A stretch of DNA of 34,428 nucleotides. Source: Prochlorococcus sp. AG-432-D11. GTDB taxonomy: Bacteria; Cyanobacteriota; Cyanobacteriia; PCC-6307; Cyanobiaceae. This document shows, one piece after another, positions 23,997 through 34,428 of this stretch. The stretch is taken from contig QCOP01000010.1 of the NCBI GenBank assembly GCA_003212885.1, positions 1 through 34,428 on the forward strand, read 5' to 3'. The stretch's first letter is position 1; the number at the start of each line of letters is the position of its first letter. Position numbers and translations under genes: made by a program. The notes beneath the pieces were generated by a model that worked only from the letters and a program-made list of their open reading frames with translations, had not been told where the DNA came from and ran no database searches.

Positions 23997-24216
23997 AAAA
24001 AAGCTTTCCTTAATCTGGACTTAACGTAAATAATGAATTGGACCATCCAAAATCACTTCTGCTAAGAGGTTTATCCCTAGCCAGATCTCATTAGATATCT
24101 AGCGACTTTAACACAACTAAACTCTTATACAAAGTAGTTGATATCTCAAGCATCAAAAAGATGTTCTTTTAGCATCGTAAAAGTCTAGTGCTACTATATA
24201 TTTCGGTCGTATTATT

Positions 24217-24290
<74 letters not shown>

Positions 24291-24350
24291 TACTCAAACT
24301 CAAGTAATACGAATGGTTTAGAGGAAAATACGGAAGACCTACTGCTTAGC

Positions 24351-24447
24351 CTGCTATGGCCTGATATGGCTGATTATTGCTATTCTGCGAACAGTTCTGC
24401 GAACGCAAAAGCAAGATGGCTACTGATTGGGAAGCAAATCTGCGAAC
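24351..24447 (+). repeat. Direct repeats between tRNA and recombinase start (left arm candidate)
   Basis: Two 10-bp repeats CTGCTATGGC/CTGATATGGC lie at 24351-24370. They are followed by the nonamer TCTGCGAAC at 24384-24392 and 24396-24404 (12-bp period) and again at 24439-24447 inside the recombinase gene. The motif recurs inverted in the primase 5' end. Placement beside a likely attachment site suggests recombinase or excisionase binding sites. Confidence 0.6.
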
Positions 24448-25702
24448 ACTTATAAAAAATACTGAAAAAGATGCTGATTTTTTACGGCGTGGAAGTTCGT
24501 GGAAAGTTCGTGGGGTAAGGGGTAAAACTCAAGTCACTATGAGACTTCAAGAGGGGCTTGGTGAAAGTAATCCGCGATCAAGCAGCATGCTGGATATTGA
24601 GTGGAAAAAAGGAAATACTATGCAAATTTTGAACGCTATTGAGGACTTAAAACGGCTCGTAAATGAGAGAAATTTATCTCTATCTGAGGCTAAAAATTTA
24701 CTATTTGCACCCGTAAATCAGGTCGATTCAAGCGGTGAAAATTGGGAAGCTTTGAAGGCTTCATACCTTGAAAGCAAGTCCGACCGCAGAAGCACGACCC
24801 TTAAAGATATCAGCACCAGACTAAATAATTTGCTCATCACTCTGGAAAAGAATCCAAAGCCTCGAACTGGTCGCGATGCCATGAGAGCTTATTCAAAACA
24901 TTGGTTGAAGAAAGCTCCACAAGGAGGTCAAGGCCGCAAGAGGTCATTGCAAGACGTTGCCAGTTTCCTTCGTTTCGCTGTCACCAGATGCGGTAAGGAA
25001 GAGCGTTGGTTGCCTCTTAATGCAGAAGAACTTAGAGAGCTAGTTGGAGTCAGACAAACAACTTCAGAGTCACATTTAACGGCTGCTGTTTTACCAAAAG
25101 ACCTTGCTAATTTGCTCGATCAAATGAAAGCAGATGGAAGAGAAGATTTATATTTAGCGACCGCACTAATTAGTTTGTATGGTCTTCGACTTGGAGAATT
25201 AGCCAAGTTAAATATTATTGATGGAGATTTATTTGTAGGTCATATAAAACAAAATAGCCAAACACTTATCCAAGAAGAAAAACCACCAAGAGAAGTTTTG
25301 GGTGTCGATATCGCAGGAAGAGAAGGTGAAGCTGTAAAGGTTCTGCAGCTCTACCAGTCGGGTCTGGTGAAACTACCAATAGCTGTTTTGAACCAAATCA
25401 AAATGGTTGAGCAGAAAGGTCATTTTAAAGATGTAGGGACTTCTTTCTCTGGGATTTTAAAAAGATATAAACCTTGGATTTCTCTGGTCCAAAGGAATAA
25501 AGGAGTTAGCCCTTATTCACTGAGGCACTCATGGGCTTACCGGGTGCATAAGGCAACCGAGGCCCCGGTGGATTCAAGTATCGCGGCTTCGCTTATGGGT
25601 CACAGTATCGAAGTCCATAATCGGGTTTATTCAACTTGGATCGACAAAAAAATCAAAAAAGCAGCAATCGCTAGAGCAAACAAAGCACTAATAAAAGCAT
25701 GA
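24416..25702 (+). CDS. Tyrosine recombinase/integrase
   Basis: The ATG at 24416 (MATDWEANLRTLIKNTEKDA) is chosen; a TTG at 24377 would add 13 residues that run through the repeats. An arm/core-binding region covers about residues 1-225, including a SAM-like helix bundle. The C-terminal catalytic domain shows the first Arg in LYGLRLGELAKLN (R258), SPYSLRHSWAYR (R370, with Tyr instead of His in the HxxR position), LMGHSIEVHNRVYSTW (H396 and nucleophile Tyr405). Length (428) and position beside a tRNA 3' end fit site-specific integration into tRNA-Arg. Confidence 0.9.
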   Translation: MATDWEANLRTLIKNTEKDADFLRRGSSWKVRGVRGKTQVTMRLQEGLGESNPRSSSMLDIEWKKGNTMQILNAIEDLKRLVNERNLSLSEAKNLLFAPVNQVDSSGENWEALKASYLESKSDRRSTTLKDISTRLNNLLITLEKNPKPRTGRDAMRAYSKHWLKKAPQGGQGRKRSLQDVASFLRFAVTRCGKEERWLPLNAEELRELVGVRQTTSESHLTAAVLPKDLANLLDQMKADGREDLYLATALISLYGLRLGELAKLNIIDGDLFVGHIKQNSQTLIQEEKPPREVLGVDIAGREGEAVKVLQLYQSGLVKLPIAVLNQIKMVEQKGHFKDVGTSFSGILKRYKPWISLVQRNKGVSPYSLRHSWAYRVHKATEAPVDSSIAASLMGHSIEVHNRVYSTWIDKKIKKAAIARANKALIKA

Positions 25703-25908: not shown

Positions 25909-26982
25909 TTAATTTTTTAGATAACTTTTTTCATAGTTTTTCTGTAATTTCTCAAACCAATTCAAAAGATGTTGATACCTTTTCTTTGAGGCTGCTGAAT
26001 TGTCTGGATCTATTAAATCAAATCTTACGTCCAATAGAAACTTTAAAAAATCTTTTGGCTCACAACTTTCTCCACCTTTCCATGCATGAAATTGTATATG
26101 TATTTGATTTTCGACAACTAAGATATTTTCTTGAAGATCAGCAAGGTCTGGGCGTGTATGTCTATCAAAAAGATGGTGTCCAATTAATTGCACAGAATTA
26201 ACATTGCTTTTTTTCTTCCCACTTACTTGGCATGTGTAATTCGCGGCTTTCTTTGCATTACTAATTATCTTGTCAACTCTATTTGAAGCTGCATTCAATC
26301 TTTTGATCTCTTGCTTAAAACAATCCTCTACGACATCGCCAACTGTCTCTACCCAAACTTTACGAGATTTCTTTATCTTTGAATTTTGAGACATATCAAT
26401 TGCAAGGCGAGCAATGCCTCTTTGACTCCACATCCTTTCTTCTGTTTCTTCTGAACGAATAAAATCTTTATCAATTTCAAGCCCTTCTTGACCATCTAAT
26501 GAACCAGAATTAATTAAACGTTGTTCGCTATTGTTAAAACCTTTTCCATTTGTCTCAAGAATATTTATAGTAGTTTTCTTGGTAACGAATGCGAACGCTC
26601 CTCTTATTTCTAGAGGTACTTCAGACGAAACAAACTGCTTCACAATTTTTCTTGAGACAAGCATTTTCTTTCTTTTAAGGCGCCTTCTTAATAAGGCATC
26701 TAAAACAAGATTAACAAAATTTATTTCACCTTTTTCTTCATAATAACGGGCCAAAATAGCAACAGCTTCTTCAGTAAATCGTCGTGGGCGAAGATGAAGC
26801 GGACCACTTTTAATTAGAAACTCAAAATGTTCTCCTTCTAGCAATTCCCATTCGTCATCATCATATGCATCAAAAAATTTAATTGTATTCGTTAATTGCG
26901 TAGTAGTTTTGTTGAGAATTTTGGCCACTTCATGATGACTTAATAACGCTGGACCAAGTTTTTTTGAAATTTTATCAGTCAT
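25909..26982 (-). CDS. HTH plus HNH nuclease-like protein
   Basis: The 357-residue protein starts at the ATG at 26982, which overlaps the stop of the J-domain gene (TGATG). The N-terminus (LLSHHEVAKILNKTTTQLTN) resembles an HTH, followed by a second conserved block LRPRRFTEEAVAILARYYEE. The middle (about 90-240) is helical and charged. The C-terminal part has an HNH-like signature: TCQVSGK, VQLIGHHLFDRHTRPDLADL with a His pair, QENILVV with the Asn, and HIQFHAW with two His. It probably cuts or nicks DNA. Only one Cys is seen, so a zinc-stabilised variant is unlikely. The role in the element is unknown; defence, mobilisation and regulation are all possible. Confidence 0.65.
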   Translation of the reverse strand: MTDKISKKLGPALLSHHEVAKILNKTTTQLTNTIKFFDAYDDDEWELLEGEHFEFLIKSGPLHLRPRRFTEEAVAILARYYEEKGEINFVNLVLDALLRRRLKRKKMLVSRKIVKQFVSSEVPLEIRGAFAFVTKKTTINILETNGKGFNNSEQRLINSGSLDGQEGLEIDKDFIRSEETEERMWSQRGIARLAIDMSQNSKIKKSRKVWVETVGDVVEDCFKQEIKRLNAASNRVDKIISNAKKAANYTCQVSGKKKSNVNSVQLIGHHLFDRHTRPDLADLQENILVVENQIHIQFHAWKGGESCEPKDFLKFLLDVRFDLIDPDNSAASKKRYQHLLNWFEKLQKNYEKSYLKN

Positions 26983-27536
26983 CACATCAACCCTAAAATT
27001 GAATCTTTCATTTTTGTTAGCCGTTCCATGACTCTTGGATCTCCGCCATAGTCTGGGTGATGTACCTTTGCAAGAGAGTTATACGCTTTTTTTACATCTT
27101 CTTTTGTTGCGGTTGAGCTATCTAATCCAAAGACATGCCATGGACGAAAATTTTCTAGAACATCGATTCCATTAATACAAGTTGCACCTTCCTTCGTTCT
27201 CTCCTCTGCAGGTACTCCAACCCATCTTCTATATAGTTTCATCCAGTCATCTTTTGACTTGAATGAAATCTTTTCTCCAGTCATCGCCATACTGAAAGTT
27301 TTATTCTTTCTTAATTCAGGAACTGTTGTACAACTAAATTGAGACAAAACTGCCTTCCTTGCTGCAGCCATGGTCATTGATTTTGGCTTCTTAGGTTTAG
27401 GAGTAGTAAAAGGCCCACCATTAATTTTCTCTGCGAACCCATATAACAATTCTTCTGAAATATCTCCTTGTGAAGTTAAGTCGCTTATCAATGCAATAAC
27501 TTCAGGCTTAGTAAGTCGCTTGCGCCTTGCTGGCAT
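26982..27536 (-). CDS. J-domain (DnaJ-like) protein of the element
   Basis: The 184-residue protein has a basic N-terminus (MPARRKRLTKPEVIALISDL), a Lys/Pro-rich linker (PKPKKPKSM) and a middle domain with KDDWMKLYRRWVGVPAEER. The C-terminal J domain has WHVFGLD, KEDVKKAYNSLAKVHHPDYG with the H-P-D motif at 160-162, and GDPRVMERLTKM. J domains stimulate the ATPase of DnaK. There is no Gly/Phe or zinc-finger region, so it is a type III J protein, probably specialised to recruit host DnaK for element functions. It is co-translated with the HNH-like gene. Confidence 0.75.
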   Translation of the reverse strand: MPARRKRLTKPEVIALISDLTSQGDISEELLYGFAEKINGGPFTTPKPKKPKSMTMAAARKAVLSQFSCTTVPELRKNKTFSMAMTGEKISFKSKDDWMKLYRRWVGVPAEERTKEGATCINGIDVLENFRPWHVFGLDSSTATKEDVKKAYNSLAKVHHPDYGGDPRVMERLTKMKDSILGLM

Positions 27537-28345: not shown

Positions 28346-30817
28346 ATGGCCTCCAAAACTGAAGGCCAAGGGGGATCTCACATTCCTAGCTTAGCCGCCC
28401 CACTGCCTGATGTGCAGTCGATTCATACACTTAAAAATCCAGTCAAACCAGGAAAGATTAAAGAAGGTGTCCTAAGAAATTCGCAGAAGTGTTCGCAGTT
28501 ACGTCAAGAACTGCTTAATTCGGCAATTCCAGAGCACTTGCACGACCAACTCGGCTACAAACCAGTAACAGAAAAAGAAGCTTTTGAGCTTGTGGGACAC
28601 AACCGTTCAGGTTGGGTAGTTTCATTTAAAGATCCTGAAGGGAAGCCTTACCTCACTAGCAAAGGGCAACCTTTTTATCGACTAAAGCCAAGCAAAGGGG
28701 AAAAAAAATATTTATCACCATCAGGGGAAGGTTGTAGGCCATATTTTTCACCTCTTTTAGATCCAAAACACTTTGCACCAGAAAGACCTGTTTTCCTCCC
28801 CGAAGGGGAAAAGAAGTGCGATTGTTTAGCTGCTCATGGGTTCACAGCGATTGGACTTTCAGGGGTGTGGTGCTGGAAAGATCATAGGTCTGGAGAAAGT
28901 AAAATGCTTCCAGAACTTACTAAGTTCAATTGGAATAGAAGACCTGTTTTTGTCGTTTTTGACTCAGATATTCTTCAAAAGCAAGGAGTAAAAGATGCTT
29001 TCAAAAGTCTCAAAGCTGCACTTAAAGAACTTGGTGCAATAGTAAAAATAATTCCATTACCTCCTGAACTTAATGGCGAGAAAAACGGAATAGATGATTT
29101 TATTCTTCGACACGGTAAAGAGGCATTTGAGTTATTAATTAAAGCTGCATCCGACGATATAGAAGAGCCAAAGCTGACCCACTTCAAAACATTAATAGCC
29201 TTACCGATTCTTAAAACTTGTTATTCCCATAGGCCAGACATCGGACTATATGAAAATGTTGGAACGCATTGGGAACTCAATAAGGAGAGAAAAGCAAGTG
29301 CAATAGAACTGCCTCTCCATGAATTTATGGATCAAATGGGGTGGAATAAAAGGGAAACTAATCATTTCAACTCTGTCAGAAGTGAGTTACTAGCTCGCTT
29401 GAAAAACACTCAATGGGATCAGCAGCCTCTTATGAGTTTCAAGAATGGGACGTTAAATATAAAAACAAATAGGTTCACTCCAGAGCATCAAAGATACGAC
29501 TACTTAACCCATAGTTTTGACTTCGCTTATGATCCGAAATCTACTTGTCCCAATTGGTTGAATTTCCTAGATGAGACATTTAAAAAGGATCAGCAAGTAA
29601 TAAATATATTACGAGCGGCATTTAAGTGGACAGTCCTACCAAAAGATAATTCTCAGCCTTTTAAATTAGAATGTTTCTTTGATCTATTTGGCGGAAAAGG
29701 CTGTGGAAAAGGAACTATTCAAGAAGTACTAACTTCAGTCTGTGGGGGTGATAAAGCACGAGGATTACTTAGAAGTACCAACATTAATAACCCTGAAGCA
29801 AGAGCATCTTTACTTGGCAAAAAGTTGGCAATTGATCCAGATGCTTCTGGACTCATGACAGATGCTGGCGTCTTCAATTCCATAGTTAGCAATGAACCAG
29901 TGCCAATAAAAATCCTCTACGAAAATAGTAGTTTTGCAAGATTAGGCGTTGTAATTTGGAGGAATTTCAACGACCAACCCTCCGTATCTGGAGGAGGTGC
30001 GGAAGGGCTTGGTAGACGTATGGTTACTTTTAGGATTAAGAATCAACCAGCAAGACCTGACACCGAACTTAAAAGAAAACTTCTAAAGGAAGTTTCAGGA
30101 ATCTTTTACTGGTGTTGGAGTATGTCCGAGACGGAAATGACAGAAACTTTAGAAAGACGAGGGGACATAACAGCTATTGCAGATGCTTCAATTGAGAACC
30201 AACTAGAACACCAACCAATTCTCAAATTTTTGAAGGACAAGTTTCAAAATGGCGAATCTTACATGAGAGCTTCAAATCTTTATGAGAGATATAAAAAATG
30301 GTGTGAGGAAGAAGGTTGCGGGGTTTGCAAAAATGCCAAGTTTGGAAAAGAAATAAAAAAAGTGCAGGGTTTGGTTTCTTTTAGCCGAGATAGTGCAGGC
30401 TGTTACTACGAAATCAAGCCCACAAAAGATTTTGATTGGGCTGTTCATTTTGGAATCAAACAAAATGCAGGGTTGAACCCTACACAAAAACAAACCCTAC
30501 ACTCGAAGCCTACATCCCCAGACCCTTTGGAGGTCAAGGATTCTCAGGGAGTGGTGCAGGGTATGTATGGTTTATCTAATAACTTTAATTTTAAAAAAGA
30601 AAAAGATATTACTAATAAAGAAAAAGAATCCACTTCAACCCAACAGACCCTACATACCAAGCATCAACCAATAATGACCATCACCGATCAGGTTGATGAG
30701 GCGAGGGCGGCGGGGCATCAAACAGTAAATGAAATAGTTAAATATGCAGCCAACAAAAATAGATGTTTAGGTAAGAGCGAAGTCGAAAGATGCTTAAAAA
30801 GGCTAGGCGAAATCTAG
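28346..30817 (+). CDS. DUF3854 / P4-D5-type primase-helicase
   Basis: The 823-residue protein joins two modules. Residues about 100-270 are a DUF3854 (TOPRIM-like) primase part: VFLPEGEKKCDCLAAHGFTA, IGLSGVWCW, VFVVFDSDI, GIDDFILRHG. Residues about 350-620 are an SF3-like helicase of the D5/P4 group: MSFKNGTLNI, WLNFLDETFKKD, Walker A GGKGCGKGT (449-457, Lys455), GKKLAIDPDASGL (Walker B/sensor region), GLGRRMVTFRI. A C-terminal winged-helix-like part and a Lys/Glu/Thr-rich linker follow. Such enzymes start and unwind replication of satellites, plasmids and phages. The 3' part of the gene carries iteron-like repeats. It is translated right after the HTH frame. Confidence 0.88.
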   Translation: MASKTEGQGGSHIPSLAAPLPDVQSIHTLKNPVKPGKIKEGVLRNSQKCSQLRQELLNSAIPEHLHDQLGYKPVTEKEAFELVGHNRSGWVVSFKDPEGKPYLTSKGQPFYRLKPSKGEKKYLSPSGEGCRPYFSPLLDPKHFAPERPVFLPEGEKKCDCLAAHGFTAIGLSGVWCWKDHRSGESKMLPELTKFNWNRRPVFVVFDSDILQKQGVKDAFKSLKAALKELGAIVKIIPLPPELNGEKNGIDDFILRHGKEAFELLIKAASDDIEEPKLTHFKTLIALPILKTCYSHRPDIGLYENVGTHWELNKERKASAIELPLHEFMDQMGWNKRETNHFNSVRSELLARLKNTQWDQQPLMSFKNGTLNIKTNRFTPEHQRYDYLTHSFDFAYDPKSTCPNWLNFLDETFKKDQQVINILRAAFKWTVLPKDNSQPFKLECFFDLFGGKGCGKGTIQEVLTSVCGGDKARGLLRSTNINNPEARASLLGKKLAIDPDASGLMTDAGVFNSIVSNEPVPIKILYENSSFARLGVVIWRNFNDQPSVSGGGAEGLGRRMVTFRIKNQPARPDTELKRKLLKEVSGIFYWCWSMSETEMTETLERRGDITAIADASIENQLEHQPILKFLKDKFQNGESYMRASNLYERYKKWCEEEGCGVCKNAKFGKEIKKVQGLVSFSRDSAGCYYEIKPTKDFDWAVHFGIKQNAGLNPTQKQTLHSKPTSPDPLEVKDSQGVVQGMYGLSNNFNFKKEKDITNKEKESTSTQQTLHTKHQPIMTITDQVDEARAAGHQTVNEIVKYAANKNRCLGKSEVERCLKRLGEI
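28480..28498 (-). repeat. Inverted copy of the CTGCGAAC 12-bp-period repeat
   Basis: On the minus strand the sequence reads CTGCGAACACTTCTGCGAA, two CTGCGAA units 12 bp apart. This is the same unit and spacing as the pair at 24385-24404 (CTGCGAACAGTTCTGCGAAC) and it shares the 12-mer CTGCGAACACTT with the single copy at 24440-24451. A further TCTGCGAAC lies at 27430-27438. It falls inside the primase coding sequence. Confidence 0.6.
30363..30654. repeat. Six iteron-like TGYAGGGT repeats (candidate replication origin)
   Basis: TGCAGGGT occurs at 30363-30370, 30466-30473 and 30555-30562. Its variant TGTAGGGT is on the minus strand (as ACCCTACA) at 30477-30484, 30494-30501 and 30647-30654. The copies at 30466 and 30477 form an inverted pair with a 3-bp spacer. 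The motifs use different reading frames of the primase gene, so they are not explained by repeated amino acids. Iterons next to or within the initiator/primase gene are known for P4-like and plasmid replicons. Confidence 0.55.
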
Positions 30818-31074: not shown

Positions 31075-31878
31075 TTAATTATCTTCTTTTTCACACTGCG
31101 CTTCTCTGAGCAAATTAAAAACAAAAGGATAGTTATAAGACGCTGATTTCCTCCAATCAGAGCAGGCACCTTCCATATCTCCAATCAATTTCTTTGATAA
31201 TCCACTATTGTAATACGCTTTTGCCATCAAGGGTACATAATTTAAACCTAGCACTGCACTGTAATCAGAAATTGCTCCGGTATGATCGTCTAACTGTTTC
31301 TTTGAAAGTCCACGGTTGTAATACGCCTTTGCATACCTTGGATTAATCTCAATCGCCTTGTTGTAATCAGAAATTGCTCCGGTATGATCGCCTAATTGTT
31401 TCTTTGAAAGTCCACGGTTGTAATACGCTTCTGCATACCCTGGATTAATCTCAATCGCCTTGCTGTAATCAGAAATTGCTCCGGTATGATCTCCTAATTC
31501 AGCTTTTGTCCATCCACGGTTGTAATACGCTTCTGCATACCTTGGATTGATCTCAATCGCCTTGTTGTAATCAGAAATTGCTCCGGCAAGATATCCTAAT
31601 TCATTTTGTGCAAGTGCACGATTGTAATAGGCATCTACATCCTTTGGATTAAGTCTTATTGCTTTACTGTAATCAGAGATTGCTCCTGTATGATCACCAG
31701 CATTATATTTATCATTTGCTCGGTTGTAGTAGAAAACAGCACTCTCTGCCCTTGCTATTTCAGGGGCAGTAAGCATCACCGCAGCACTCGTTAAAACAGT
31801 CCCTGTTCCTATCGCCAACGGTTGTCCCATCGGCATTAAAGAGACTAATGCTCCAATAATTGCAGTTCGTTTCTTCAT
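31075..31878 (-). CDS. Secreted tetratricopeptide repeat protein
   Basis: The ATG at 31878 (MKKRTAIIGALVSLMPMGQP) starts a signal peptide-like region (cleavage probably near ARA-ES); an upstream frame from 31917 only adds residues encoded by a DNA repeat. The mature protein consists of six or seven TPR units of 34 residues (unit form: AYYNRGLSKKQLGDHTGAIS followed by DYNKAIEINPRYAK). Three central units are nearly identical in DNA as well as protein, pointing to recent tandem duplication. A final unit ends in GDMEGACSDWRKSASYNYPF and a Cys. It is probably a periplasmic protein-interaction scaffold; partners unknown. Confidence 0.8.
   Translation of the reverse strand: MKKRTAIIGALVSLMPMGQPLAIGTGTVLTSAAVMLTAPEIARAESAVFYYNRANDKYNAGDHTGAISDYSKAIRLNPKDVDAYYNRALAQNELGYLAGAISDYNKAIEINPRYAEAYYNRGWTKAELGDHTGAISDYSKAIEINPGYAEAYYNRGLSKKQLGDHTGAISDYNKAIEINPRYAKAYYNRGLSKKQLDDHTGAISDYSAVLGLNYVPLMAKAYYNSGLSKKLIGDMEGACSDWRKSASYNYPFVFNLLREAQCEKEDN
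31325..31600 (-). repeat. Near-identical 102-bp tandem repeats encoding TPR units
   Basis: Successive 102-bp blocks share long stretches such as TCAGAAATTGCTCCGG and CCACGGTTGTAATACGC (plus-strand reading) with only a few differences. The period equals the 34-residue TPR, so the array can gain or lose units without a frame change. Confidence 0.75.
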
Positions 31879-31882
31879 CTCG

Positions 31883-31914
31883 ATCCGCCAACAACTACAT
31901 TCTATCCGCCAACA
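31883..31914 (-). promoter_or_regulatory. Pair of TGTTGGCGGAT direct repeats upstream of the TPR gene
   Basis: TGTTGGCGGAT (minus strand) occurs at 31883-31893 and 31904-31914, a spacing of exactly 21 bp or two helical turns, a few bases before the chosen start codon. A half-similar TTGGCGGGAT lies in the opposite direction at 31940-31949. This layout resembles an operator. Confidence 0.35.
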
Positions 31915-31970
31915 CAAAAAACCTTATGGGGACAAATTTTTGGCGGGATTTTTTCTCTAAAATTGATTAT

Positions 31971-32030
31971 TTATTTTAAGCATCCATATTCTCTCATATC
32001 TTTTAAAAGCCCTTCTGTTGTTATACGCTA
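31971..32030 (-). pseudogene. In-frame remnant of a REYGCLK-domain copy behind the TAG stop
   Basis: After the TAG of the TPR gene, 18 codons in the same frame (RITTEGLLKDMREYGCLK) precede a TAA. The last 26 bases are an exact copy of 32390-32415. This looks like the end of a duplicated gene segment or the real C-terminus lost through a nonsense mutation. Confidence 0.45.
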
Positions 32031-32693
32031 TTGCATCCCGATCCCTTGGCGAAGGATCTCAACCGCCTTGTTGTAATCAACTGTTGCTCCCTTCTTATCT
32101 CCTAATTTATCTTTTGCAAGCCCACGGTTTGTATACGCATCTCCATACCGTGGATTGATCTCAATCGCTTTACTAAAATCAGAGATTGCTCCGTCATAAT
32201 CTTTTAATTTATGTTTTGCTAATCCACGGTTGTTATACGCTTCTGCATACCTTGGATTGATCTCAATTGCTTTGTTGTAATCAGCAATTGCTCCCGAATA
32301 ATCTCTTGTCTTTGCATTTCCATTTCCACGGGAGTAATAGAAAAGAGCATTCTCTGTCTTACTCTCTGGCTTTGCTTTTTCAGGGGCAGATTTTAAGCAT
32401 CCATATTCTCTCATAGCTTCTAAAATCCCTTTTATGTCCGGATCACCAGAAGCTATTTTTTCATTAAGATCATCAACTGTCCCTTGAACATCAAAACCTC
32501 CACCAATAAGCAAACAATAACTATGCGCTTCTACCTTATCCTGCTCAGGAACACCTAAATCATACATATTCTCTATAGTAAAATGGGAAACATCATCTAT
32601 TGAAATTAAATCCATAGCAATCACTGAACTTGTACCAAATAAAGTAGAGAAAACTATTAGAGGGATTGCTATTCTTTTTCTGAACATTTTCAT
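32028..32693 (-). CDS. Secreted TPR protein, paralogous to its neighbour
   Basis: The ATG at 32693 begins a signal peptide (RKRIAIPLIVFSTLFGTSSV then IAMD). An N-terminal domain (about residues 30-105) contains DKVEAHSYCLLIGGGF and GILEAMREYGCLK, with two Cys. After a Lys/Glu linker three TPR units follow (FYYSRGNGNAKTRDYSGAIA, AYNNRGLAKHKLKDYDGAIS, AYTNRGLAKDKLGDKKGATV). The frame stops at a TAG (32028-32030), but the same frame stays open for 18 more codons and encodes GLLKDMREYGCLK, a second copy of the N-terminal motif. So the protein may be shortened, or a duplicated piece was fused behind it. Function unknown. Confidence 0.75.
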   Translation of the reverse strand: MKMFRKRIAIPLIVFSTLFGTSSVIAMDLISIDDVSHFTIENMYDLGVPEQDKVEAHSYCLLIGGGFDVQGTVDDLNEKIASGDPDIKGILEAMREYGCLKSAPEKAKPESKTENALFYYSRGNGNAKTRDYSGAIADYNKAIEINPRYAEAYNNRGLAKHKLKDYDGAISDFSKAIEINPRYGDAYTNRGLAKDKLGDKKGATVDYNKAVEILRQGIGMQ

Positions 32694-32818
32694 CACAAAT
32701 AAAACATTAAAACTATATTTAAAGTAATTATTTTTTCACTTAAAAAATAATTAATTAGTAAATCTATACAATCTAGATACAAAATCTCCCGTATCTTATT
32801 TCAGTCCATCTCAAGGGG

Positions 32819-33547: not shown

Positions 33548-34428
33548 TTGGATTTTTTAAATAATGCTTTTCTTCTTTGCAAAGAAAAACTTGATAACTT
33601 GGAGAAGAATAAATATATCAAAAAAAACAAAAAAGTTATCTACTCTCTTGCCTCTTTATTTACTCTTCTTTTAGTTTTTAACTCATACTGGAGTGAAACA
33701 AATACATCAAGAGTTGCAGCAGAATCTTCGGCAAGTCTTAAGGATAGATTCAATCAAAAGTCTGGAACCAAGGATCAAGCTAGAAAAGAAAGATTAGCTA
33801 TTTGTAAGGAAATAGATGCTAAAGCAGTCAAGAAATGGGGCCATTATTACAATTACATCGAATATGAACCAGAAGCCACATTATACCCCCAATACACTGG
33901 AGAATATACTTATGTAGTACCTCTAGAAACAGGGTACGGTGTTCAGCAAATAATTTGGGATACTACATTGCCTGAACTTGATTATGATCCAAACACAGGT
34001 GAGTTGCTAACTGAAGGTGTCCTAATTAGAGATAATCAATTAGTAGGTAAGGGTTTCGTTTACGATGGCAATTACTCAAGGTTTATTTATTTTTCACCTA
34101 AAGCCTCTAAAGATTGTAAGATATCAACTTACCAACTTAAATATTGGGAAGGTCTTTATGGTTTCTCAGGTTCGAGGATTGAACCTGAGAAAAGATTTAC
34201 ACAGAACGTTAAAGGCAGGGGCAAACTTATTTACTATACTGATAACTCACCCATGGTTATCGGAAAGAAATATGAAAGTCTAACCCATGAGATAAATTCA
34301 GAATTTAATGACAAGACTAAAGAATTAACTTTTTATTTAAAACGTACAATTGATACTCCTTTATCACTTGAGCCGGTAGGAGATCACTTTTATAGTTGTA
34401 CAGTAACGGAGCCTGCATGGACGCATGA
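33548..34428 (+). CDS. Membrane-anchored protein of unknown function, 3' end beyond window
   Basis: A continuous plus-strand frame runs from a TTG at 33548 (a second in-frame TTG is at 33599) to the window edge, about 293 codons without a stop. The N-terminus is basic and then has one hydrophobic helix (KKVIYSLASLFTLLLVFNSY), a signal anchor. The outside domain has KDRFNQKSGTKDQARKERLA, WGHYYNYIEYEPEATLYPQY, YVVPLETGYGVQQIIWDTTL, SRFIYFSPKASKDC and a C-terminal TFYLKRTIDTPLSLEPVGDH. It is rich in Tyr and beta-prone. No family is recognised. The missing ATG may mean the start is not TTG but lost. Confidence 0.6.
   Translation, partial: MDFLNNAFLLCKEKLDNLEKNKYIKKNKKVIYSLASLFTLLLVFNSYWSETNTSRVAAESSASLKDRFNQKSGTKDQARKERLAICKEIDAKAVKKWGHYYNYIEYEPEATLYPQYTGEYTYVVPLETGYGVQQIIWDTTLPELDYDPNTGELLTEGVLIRDNQLVGKGFVYDGNYSRFIYFSPKASKDCKISTYQLKYWEGLYGFSGSRIEPEKRFTQNVKGRGKLIYYTDNSPMVIGKKYESLTHEINSEFNDKTKELTFYLKRTIDTPLSLEPVGDHFYSCTVTEPAWTH
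34162..34192. repeat. 12-bp inverted repeat matching the tRNA-Arg T-arm
   Basis: TTTCTCAGGTTC (34162-34173) and GAACCTGAGAAA (34181-34192) are exact inverses around a 7-base spacer. TCTCAGGTTCGA (34164-34175) is identical to tRNA-Arg 24264-24275. The minus strand continues to match the tRNA through AATCCT with one-base gaps. It lies in the coding sequence of the unknown membrane protein. Confidence 0.5.

Follow-up and report, generated by a model that had tools for sequence, protein, structure and literature searches.

The origins of PICI are located directly 3′ of rep, where two sets of iterons flank an AT-rich region (PMC6092414), and in SaPI the C-terminal domain of Rep reads the origin (PMC7581432). 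An origin within the gene of its initiator also has an established precedent in phage lambda, the ori of which lies inside gene O (PMC4488673; PMC5043065). Here we analysed a window, meaning the whole stretch of 34,428 nucleotides from Prochlorococcus sp. AG-432-D11, in which the 3′ part of a P4-family/D5 primase-helicase gene carries a cluster of the octamer TGYAGGGT. We consider it very probable (about 0.9) that this cluster belongs to an origin of the PICI/SaPI/A2 type, overprinted by the C-terminal extension of its own initiator gene. A preliminary description of the locus had already proposed an origin embedded in its initiator gene, and at the level of sequence comparison this proposal gained support, as the geometry matched that of Lactobacillus phage A2 within an annotated rep_origin.

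With SaPI and PICI the locus shared the helicase fold (best match 7ola), a C-terminal DNA-binding domain, iterons starting right after the codons of that domain, and two iteron sets around an AT-rich region, which here were S3-S8 and S9-S10 around a 66-bp spacer (Table 1). It differed in that the PICI origin is downstream of the gene, whereas here the cluster was translated, inside the gene and directly after the winged-helix codons; SaPI5 moreover has an AEP-type primase (PMC7581432), in place of which DUF3854, a domain related to Toprim/primase (PMC10079941), was found here. For the element as a whole, the comparison with PICI covered the integrase and primase region, and a PICI gene set in the window was not demonstrated. 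Phage A2, phage JNU_P5, Listeria phage PSA and E. hirae p2ZJ02 resembled the locus in the positions of the inner sites and in the AT-rich spacer, but their cluster is untranslated, and they are set apart by the host phylum and by the primase domain. Like the locus, phage lambda ori has iterons and an AT-rich segment within the coding sequence of the initiator; however, its iterons number four, are 19 bp long and all stand to one side of the AT-rich part, and lambda O recruits the host helicase through P, whereas the initiator here is itself a helicase. Since O belongs to a separate protein family, lambda ori is a parallel and not a relative. The CyRepA proteins (pSYSA Slr7037, pCC5.2 ORFb) are cyanobacterial plasmid replication proteins that also have DUF3854, but with a DEXDc helicase part where the initiator here has D5, and no repeat cluster was found in or near slr7037 (CyRepA1, pSYSA). 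With the tycheposons of Prochlorococcus (the term is used as in PMC10872708) the locus had in common a tRNA adjoining a tyrosine recombinase in a marine picocyanobacterium. A partial literature search found no published account of a D5 primase gene with an origin in it.

The initiator gene and its protein

The preliminary description had called the gene product a P4/D5-type initiator, in agreement with which the protein passed the P4-family primase model (TIGR01613, 121.3 bits against a cut-off of 108.7) and every family match of it was either to P4/D5 primase-helicases or to DUF3854. An AlphaFold2 model of the initiator (mean pLDDT 79) was compared by Foldseek, and the SaPI5 primase-helicase 7ola was the best match, followed by the African swine fever virus PrimPol (AsfvPrimPol) and poxvirus D5/E5. 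The family profile also matched 7ola by sequence (E 2.1e-12), while the single initiator sequence gave no match in a sequence search against solved structures. The winged-helix domain is presumed to be the reader of the iterons. Just after it, the linker predicted to be disordered contained eight of the ten sites (S3-S10) together with the AT-rich spacer. The C-terminal end of the protein was alike in the close relatives L010 and L011, and other ends were present instead in L012, L019 and L022. Downstream of the primase gene, two adjoining TPR-repeat genes with repeated units alike occupied 31075-32696 on the minus strand.

Table 1. Features of the initiator gene, the candidate origin and the adjoining mobile-element genes (positions in the window; iterons are numbered S1 to S10)
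Feature	Position	Strand	Remark
tRNA-Arg(TCT)	24216..24291	+	probable integration target
tyrosine recombinase/integrase of element	24377..25702	+	phrog_1 integrase E 7.6e-13
initiator gene, 823-aa P4-family/D5 primase-helicase	28346..30817	+	DUF3854, D5_N, RFX/Pox_D5 winged helix; TIGR01613
DUF3854 domain	28781..29125	+	Pfam E 1.1e-21
D5-type helicase core, P4-family primase C-terminal model	29435..30343	+	TIGR01613, residues 364-666
winged-helix DNA-binding domain, residues about 624-705	30215..30460	+	RFX/Pox_D5 Pfam matches; well folded in AlphaFold2 model
iteron S1 TGCAGGGT	30363..30370	+	within winged-helix codons
iteron S2 TGCAGGCT, 1 mismatch	30394..30401	+	within winged-helix codons
linker, codons 707-776 (70 residues), predicted disordered, pLDDT about 25	30464..30673	+	AlphaFold2
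iteron S3 TGCAGGGT	30466..30473	+	
iteron S4 TGTAGGGT	30477..30484	-	forms inverted pair with S3
iteron S5 TGTAGGGT	30494..30501	-	
iteron S6 TGTAGGCT, 1 mismatch	30507..30514	-	
iteron S7 TGCAGGGT	30555..30562	+	
iteron S8 TGTATGGT, 1 mismatch	30564..30571	+	left inner site, faces AT-rich spacer
AT-rich spacer, 66 bp, 83% AT	30572..30637	.	presumed melting element
iteron S9 TGTTGGGT, 1 mismatch	30638..30645	-	right inner site, faces AT-rich spacer
iteron S10 TGTAGGGT	30647..30654	-	
small helical C-terminal domain, residues 779-823	30680..30814	+	AlphaFold2 model; lies beyond candidate origin

The repeat cluster and its recurrence in relatives

Six exact copies of TGYAGGGT, three per strand, were confirmed within the 292 bp of 30363-30654 (S1, S3, S4, S5, S7 and S10), and none was present elsewhere in the 34-kb window. 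When one mismatch was allowed, four further sites (S2, S6, S8 and S9) brought the cluster to ten, and the rest of the window had 22 such sites. The near-palindromic pair that had been noticed before was found at 30466-30484 (TGCAGGGTtgaACCCTACA). The preliminary description had to be corrected in two respects: the sites, said to use two reading frames, use three, as do the six exact ones alone; and the placement in the linker held for eight of the ten sites but not for the first two, which lie in the winged-helix codons. In the 60-bp interval 30560-30619, the GC content dropped to 17%.

Shuffled windows contained on average 0.98 copies of TGYAGGGT, with a maximum of 5. The 981-kb assembly had 35 copies in total, and the 29 outside the window, in about 947 kb, gave an expectation of about 0.009 per 292 bp; the word was rare elsewhere in the genome rather than equally frequent, and the earlier statement that the cluster exceeds chance was upheld by this count and by the codon resampling described below. 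As TGYAGGGT was picked after the cluster had been seen, the recurrent clusters of relatives provided the independent test.

Homologues were taken from 28 further genomes in the sample of this family, from other cyanobacteria, from named Prochlorococcus, Synechococcus and Symploca contigs, and from plasmids and phages; scans of viral and genome contigs with the single protein returned no relatives, and those with the alignment returned 1 and 19. At the corresponding place, L010 and L011, two close relatives with a protein identity of about 50%, had six and five copies of TGCAGGGT. Twenty-four close homologues that have the C-terminal part were scanned over 600 bp around the winged-helix end: an octamer occurred at least three times in 22 of them and at least four times in 14, against at least four times in 2 of 97 upstream windows of the same homologue genes; these homologue counts are partly non-independent because near-duplicates are present (L071/L074, L010/L011, L019/L063/L077), and word counts are biased upward by taking the commonest octamer of each region, a choice that the shuffles repeat, so that they allow for the bias. 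Three homologues (L016, L022 and L072) had three exact copies each, individually within chance. No cluster was found at the winged-helix end in the disrupted homologue L018 and in L060 from a viral contig, nor in the distant D5 genes of Rowa, TG1 and Artemius and of the Thermaerobacter and Bacillus badius plasmids.

Among rep genes of the D5 kind on cyanobacterial plasmids, six of seven had a word repeated 5-12 times after the winged-helix end, the repeats of one of the six starting 66 nt before it; the seventh, of Nostoc HK-01, was weak with 4 copies. The densest cluster found was that in the rep gene of the Oscillatoria plasmid pOSC7112.01 (L100, 4699-5100), in which AAGTGGTG occurs 12 times. 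Primase genes of several picocyanobacterial genomes (L018, L029-L031 and L038) were broken or incomplete, with internal stops, and probably represent the same type of element in decay.

Origin geometry, concerted words and alternative explanations

Measured from the winged-helix end, the inner sites of the window, at +109(+) and +183(-), face each other over 66 bp of 83% AT. In phage A2, the inner sites were at +92(+) and +168(-) with a spacer of 68 bp and 84% AT, inside the annotated rep_origin (32208-32717), of which, according to the record, the first 28 bp are the end of the primase gene and the other 482 bp lie past it. Phage JNU_P5 had inner sites at +92/+164, a 64-bp spacer of 84% AT and the same word as the window, TGTAGGGT; E. 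hirae p2ZJ02 had them at +93/+186 with the word TGGAGGGT, and Listeria phage PSA at +85/+167. Across these four, the left inner site ranged from +85 to +93 and the right one from +164 to +186, with spacers of 64-85 bp and 73-84% AT. In the Firmicutes cases the gene ended 2-8 nt past the winged-helix end (86 nt in phi105), leaving the cluster untranslated, while the cyanobacterial plasmid genes ran on for 578-953 nt and covered it. The simple spacer geometry was absent in four higher-GC members (L014, L015, L016 and L020). The most economical interpretation is that of a single type of origin whose distance from the winged-helix codons hardly varies, with no translation of it in Firmicutes phages and overprinting of it in cyanobacterial elements and plasmids.

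On the same scale, the sites occupied slots at about -92(+), -61(+), +11(+), +22(-), +39(-), +52(-), +100(+) and +109(+), followed by the AT-rich stretch and then by +183(-) and +192(-). Slots and strands agreed across relatives, with small shifts that follow gaps of the protein alignment. The word itself varied by gene (TGYAGGGT, TGCAGGGT, TGCATGGT, TGGAGGGT, TGRWGRGT, TGGTGAGT, TGTAGGGT). Whether repeats are kept while the linker varies had been raised beforehand as a check, and in the relatives they are: the geometry stays, and the encoded peptides, even the repeat word, change. Slot identity within genes was 0.744 against 0.680 ± 0.008 under a null in which slot words were shuffled between genes (0 of 5000 permutations; six slots, 12 genes), and 0.763 against 0.678 with close relatives collapsed (0 of 5000), phylogeny being otherwise outside the model; because the slots were read from the same genes and the shifts from the protein alignment, this test addresses concerted wording and not independent discovery of the slots. 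Shifting the lattice along the sequence lowered the score. When a tree was built from the helicase and winged-helix part, clades with good support shared a word, the deeper branching being poorly resolved. Such concerted change is the pattern that co-evolution of initiator and sites would give; it is not expected from selection on peptides, since one word is read in more than one frame.

The leading alternative, which we nevertheless regard as improbable, is that the initiator binds the repeats in the service of copy control, autoregulation or incompatibility, the true origin being elsewhere in the element. Iteron clusters of plasmids also have control roles, and S1 and S2 are placed further upstream, within codons of the winged helix; against this, the AT-rich spacer with inward-facing inner sites matches the origin layout of PICI and phage A2, and a scan for exact and one-mismatch sites found no second TGYAGGGT-type cluster in the window. 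Selection at the protein level, for peptide motifs (VQG, TLH, NPT) in a low-complexity linker, is highly unlikely even though several relatives share short peptides of this sort, MQGMQG and TLH among them. All three frames and both strands are used by the word, which therefore encodes different peptides; the linker is predicted to be disordered, and the same kind of cluster is untranslated in Firmicutes relatives. When synonymous codons were resampled with the protein kept, the linker region had on average 0.26 exact sites and at most four, and none of 20,000 trials reached six; on this resampling and on the use of frames and strands, protein-level repeats were rejected as the cause.

We give equally little credence to sites that serve another DNA transaction, such as helper-phage packaging, excision or transfer. 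The element is probably mobile and mobile elements need cis sites, but the words adjoin winged-helix codons in the gene of a replicative helicase, with which they change from one clade to the next, and rep genes of circular plasmids have similar clusters. A chance or compositional effect, picked after the fact, would be compatible with a single exact word in the window giving n=3, which 23 of 300 shuffles reached, but is extremely unlikely given that relatives independently show the same slots, strands and concerted word changes.

Proposed mechanism and mobile-element context

The overprinted-origin reading starts from what was computed here (sites, lattice, concerted word change, spacer, domain order, predicted fold and A2 match), and from there we infer binding, melting, helicase loading, excision and replication of the element. 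The replication origin of a tRNA-associated mobile element would sit in the 3′ part of its own initiator gene. The initiator, a P4/D5 primase-helicase resembling SaPI5 Rep, would use its winged-helix domain to recognise the octamer TGYAGGGT, with tolerance for some variation. Copies of the protein would bind both site sets, S1-S8 on the left and S9-S10 on the right, which face each other across the 66-bp AT-rich spacer, and the spacer would then melt; a helicase hexamer would be loaded on each strand, the primase part would begin DNA synthesis, and the excised element could thereby multiply. In cyanobacterial elements and plasmids, the frame would run through the origin, translated there as a disordered linker and followed by an extra C-terminal segment, while in Firmicutes phages the gene stops at the winged helix, with the origin just downstream.

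A wider generalisation is tentative and rather doubtful at present, namely that across phyla the origin of D5-type initiators stays almost equally far from the winged-helix codons, overprinted in cyanobacteria, with initiator, binding specificity and origin forming one indivisible unit. If it were true, concerted word changes would mark off incompatibility groups from one another, and the initiator may work mostly in cis, on its own gene. For tRNA-associated elements in cyanobacteria that abound in the ocean, the locus offers a concrete, testable candidate origin, and it would link these elements to the replication of SaPI/PICI and phage A2. It also suggests a rule for finding origins of D5-type replicons, which is to search the DNA that follows immediately on the winged-helix codons, whether or not it is translated. 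The concerted changes of iteron word may serve as a natural data set on how this winged helix reads DNA, and the loci are candidate minimal replicons for cyanobacterial vectors.

The tRNA and the recombinase fit a tRNA-integrated mobile element of the tycheposon kind. RNA families other than tRNA were not found. Integrases related to that of the element were present on several contigs with related primases, and tRNAs on 8 of 13 related loci searched. The 3′ end of the tRNA had no repeat elsewhere on the contig that could mark the right attachment site, and the element may run past the contig end. The only match to the tRNA, of 12 bp at 34164, was rejected as this site, as it belongs to an inverted repeat and not to the tRNA 3′ end; the inverted repeat itself (34162-34192, TTTCTCAGGTTCgaggattGAACCTGAGAAA) has 12 bp in common with the T-arm region of tRNA-Arg and is no obvious attachment site. 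Eight related contigs had no terminal overlaps indicating a circular form, and an empty integration site was not found. With neither a right end nor a circular form detected, autonomous replication is something that we infer.

On the minus strand at 25909-26985, a 358-aa ORF without Pfam match was present, the last 71 residues of which were 90% identical to a segment of L062 (Prochlorococcus AG-311-D23). The primases of the two elements were only about 50% identical, and this difference suggests a recent exchange between elements. On another Prochlorococcus contig of 10.9 kb (L063, 4226-7160), two different integrase genes were located beside a related primase.
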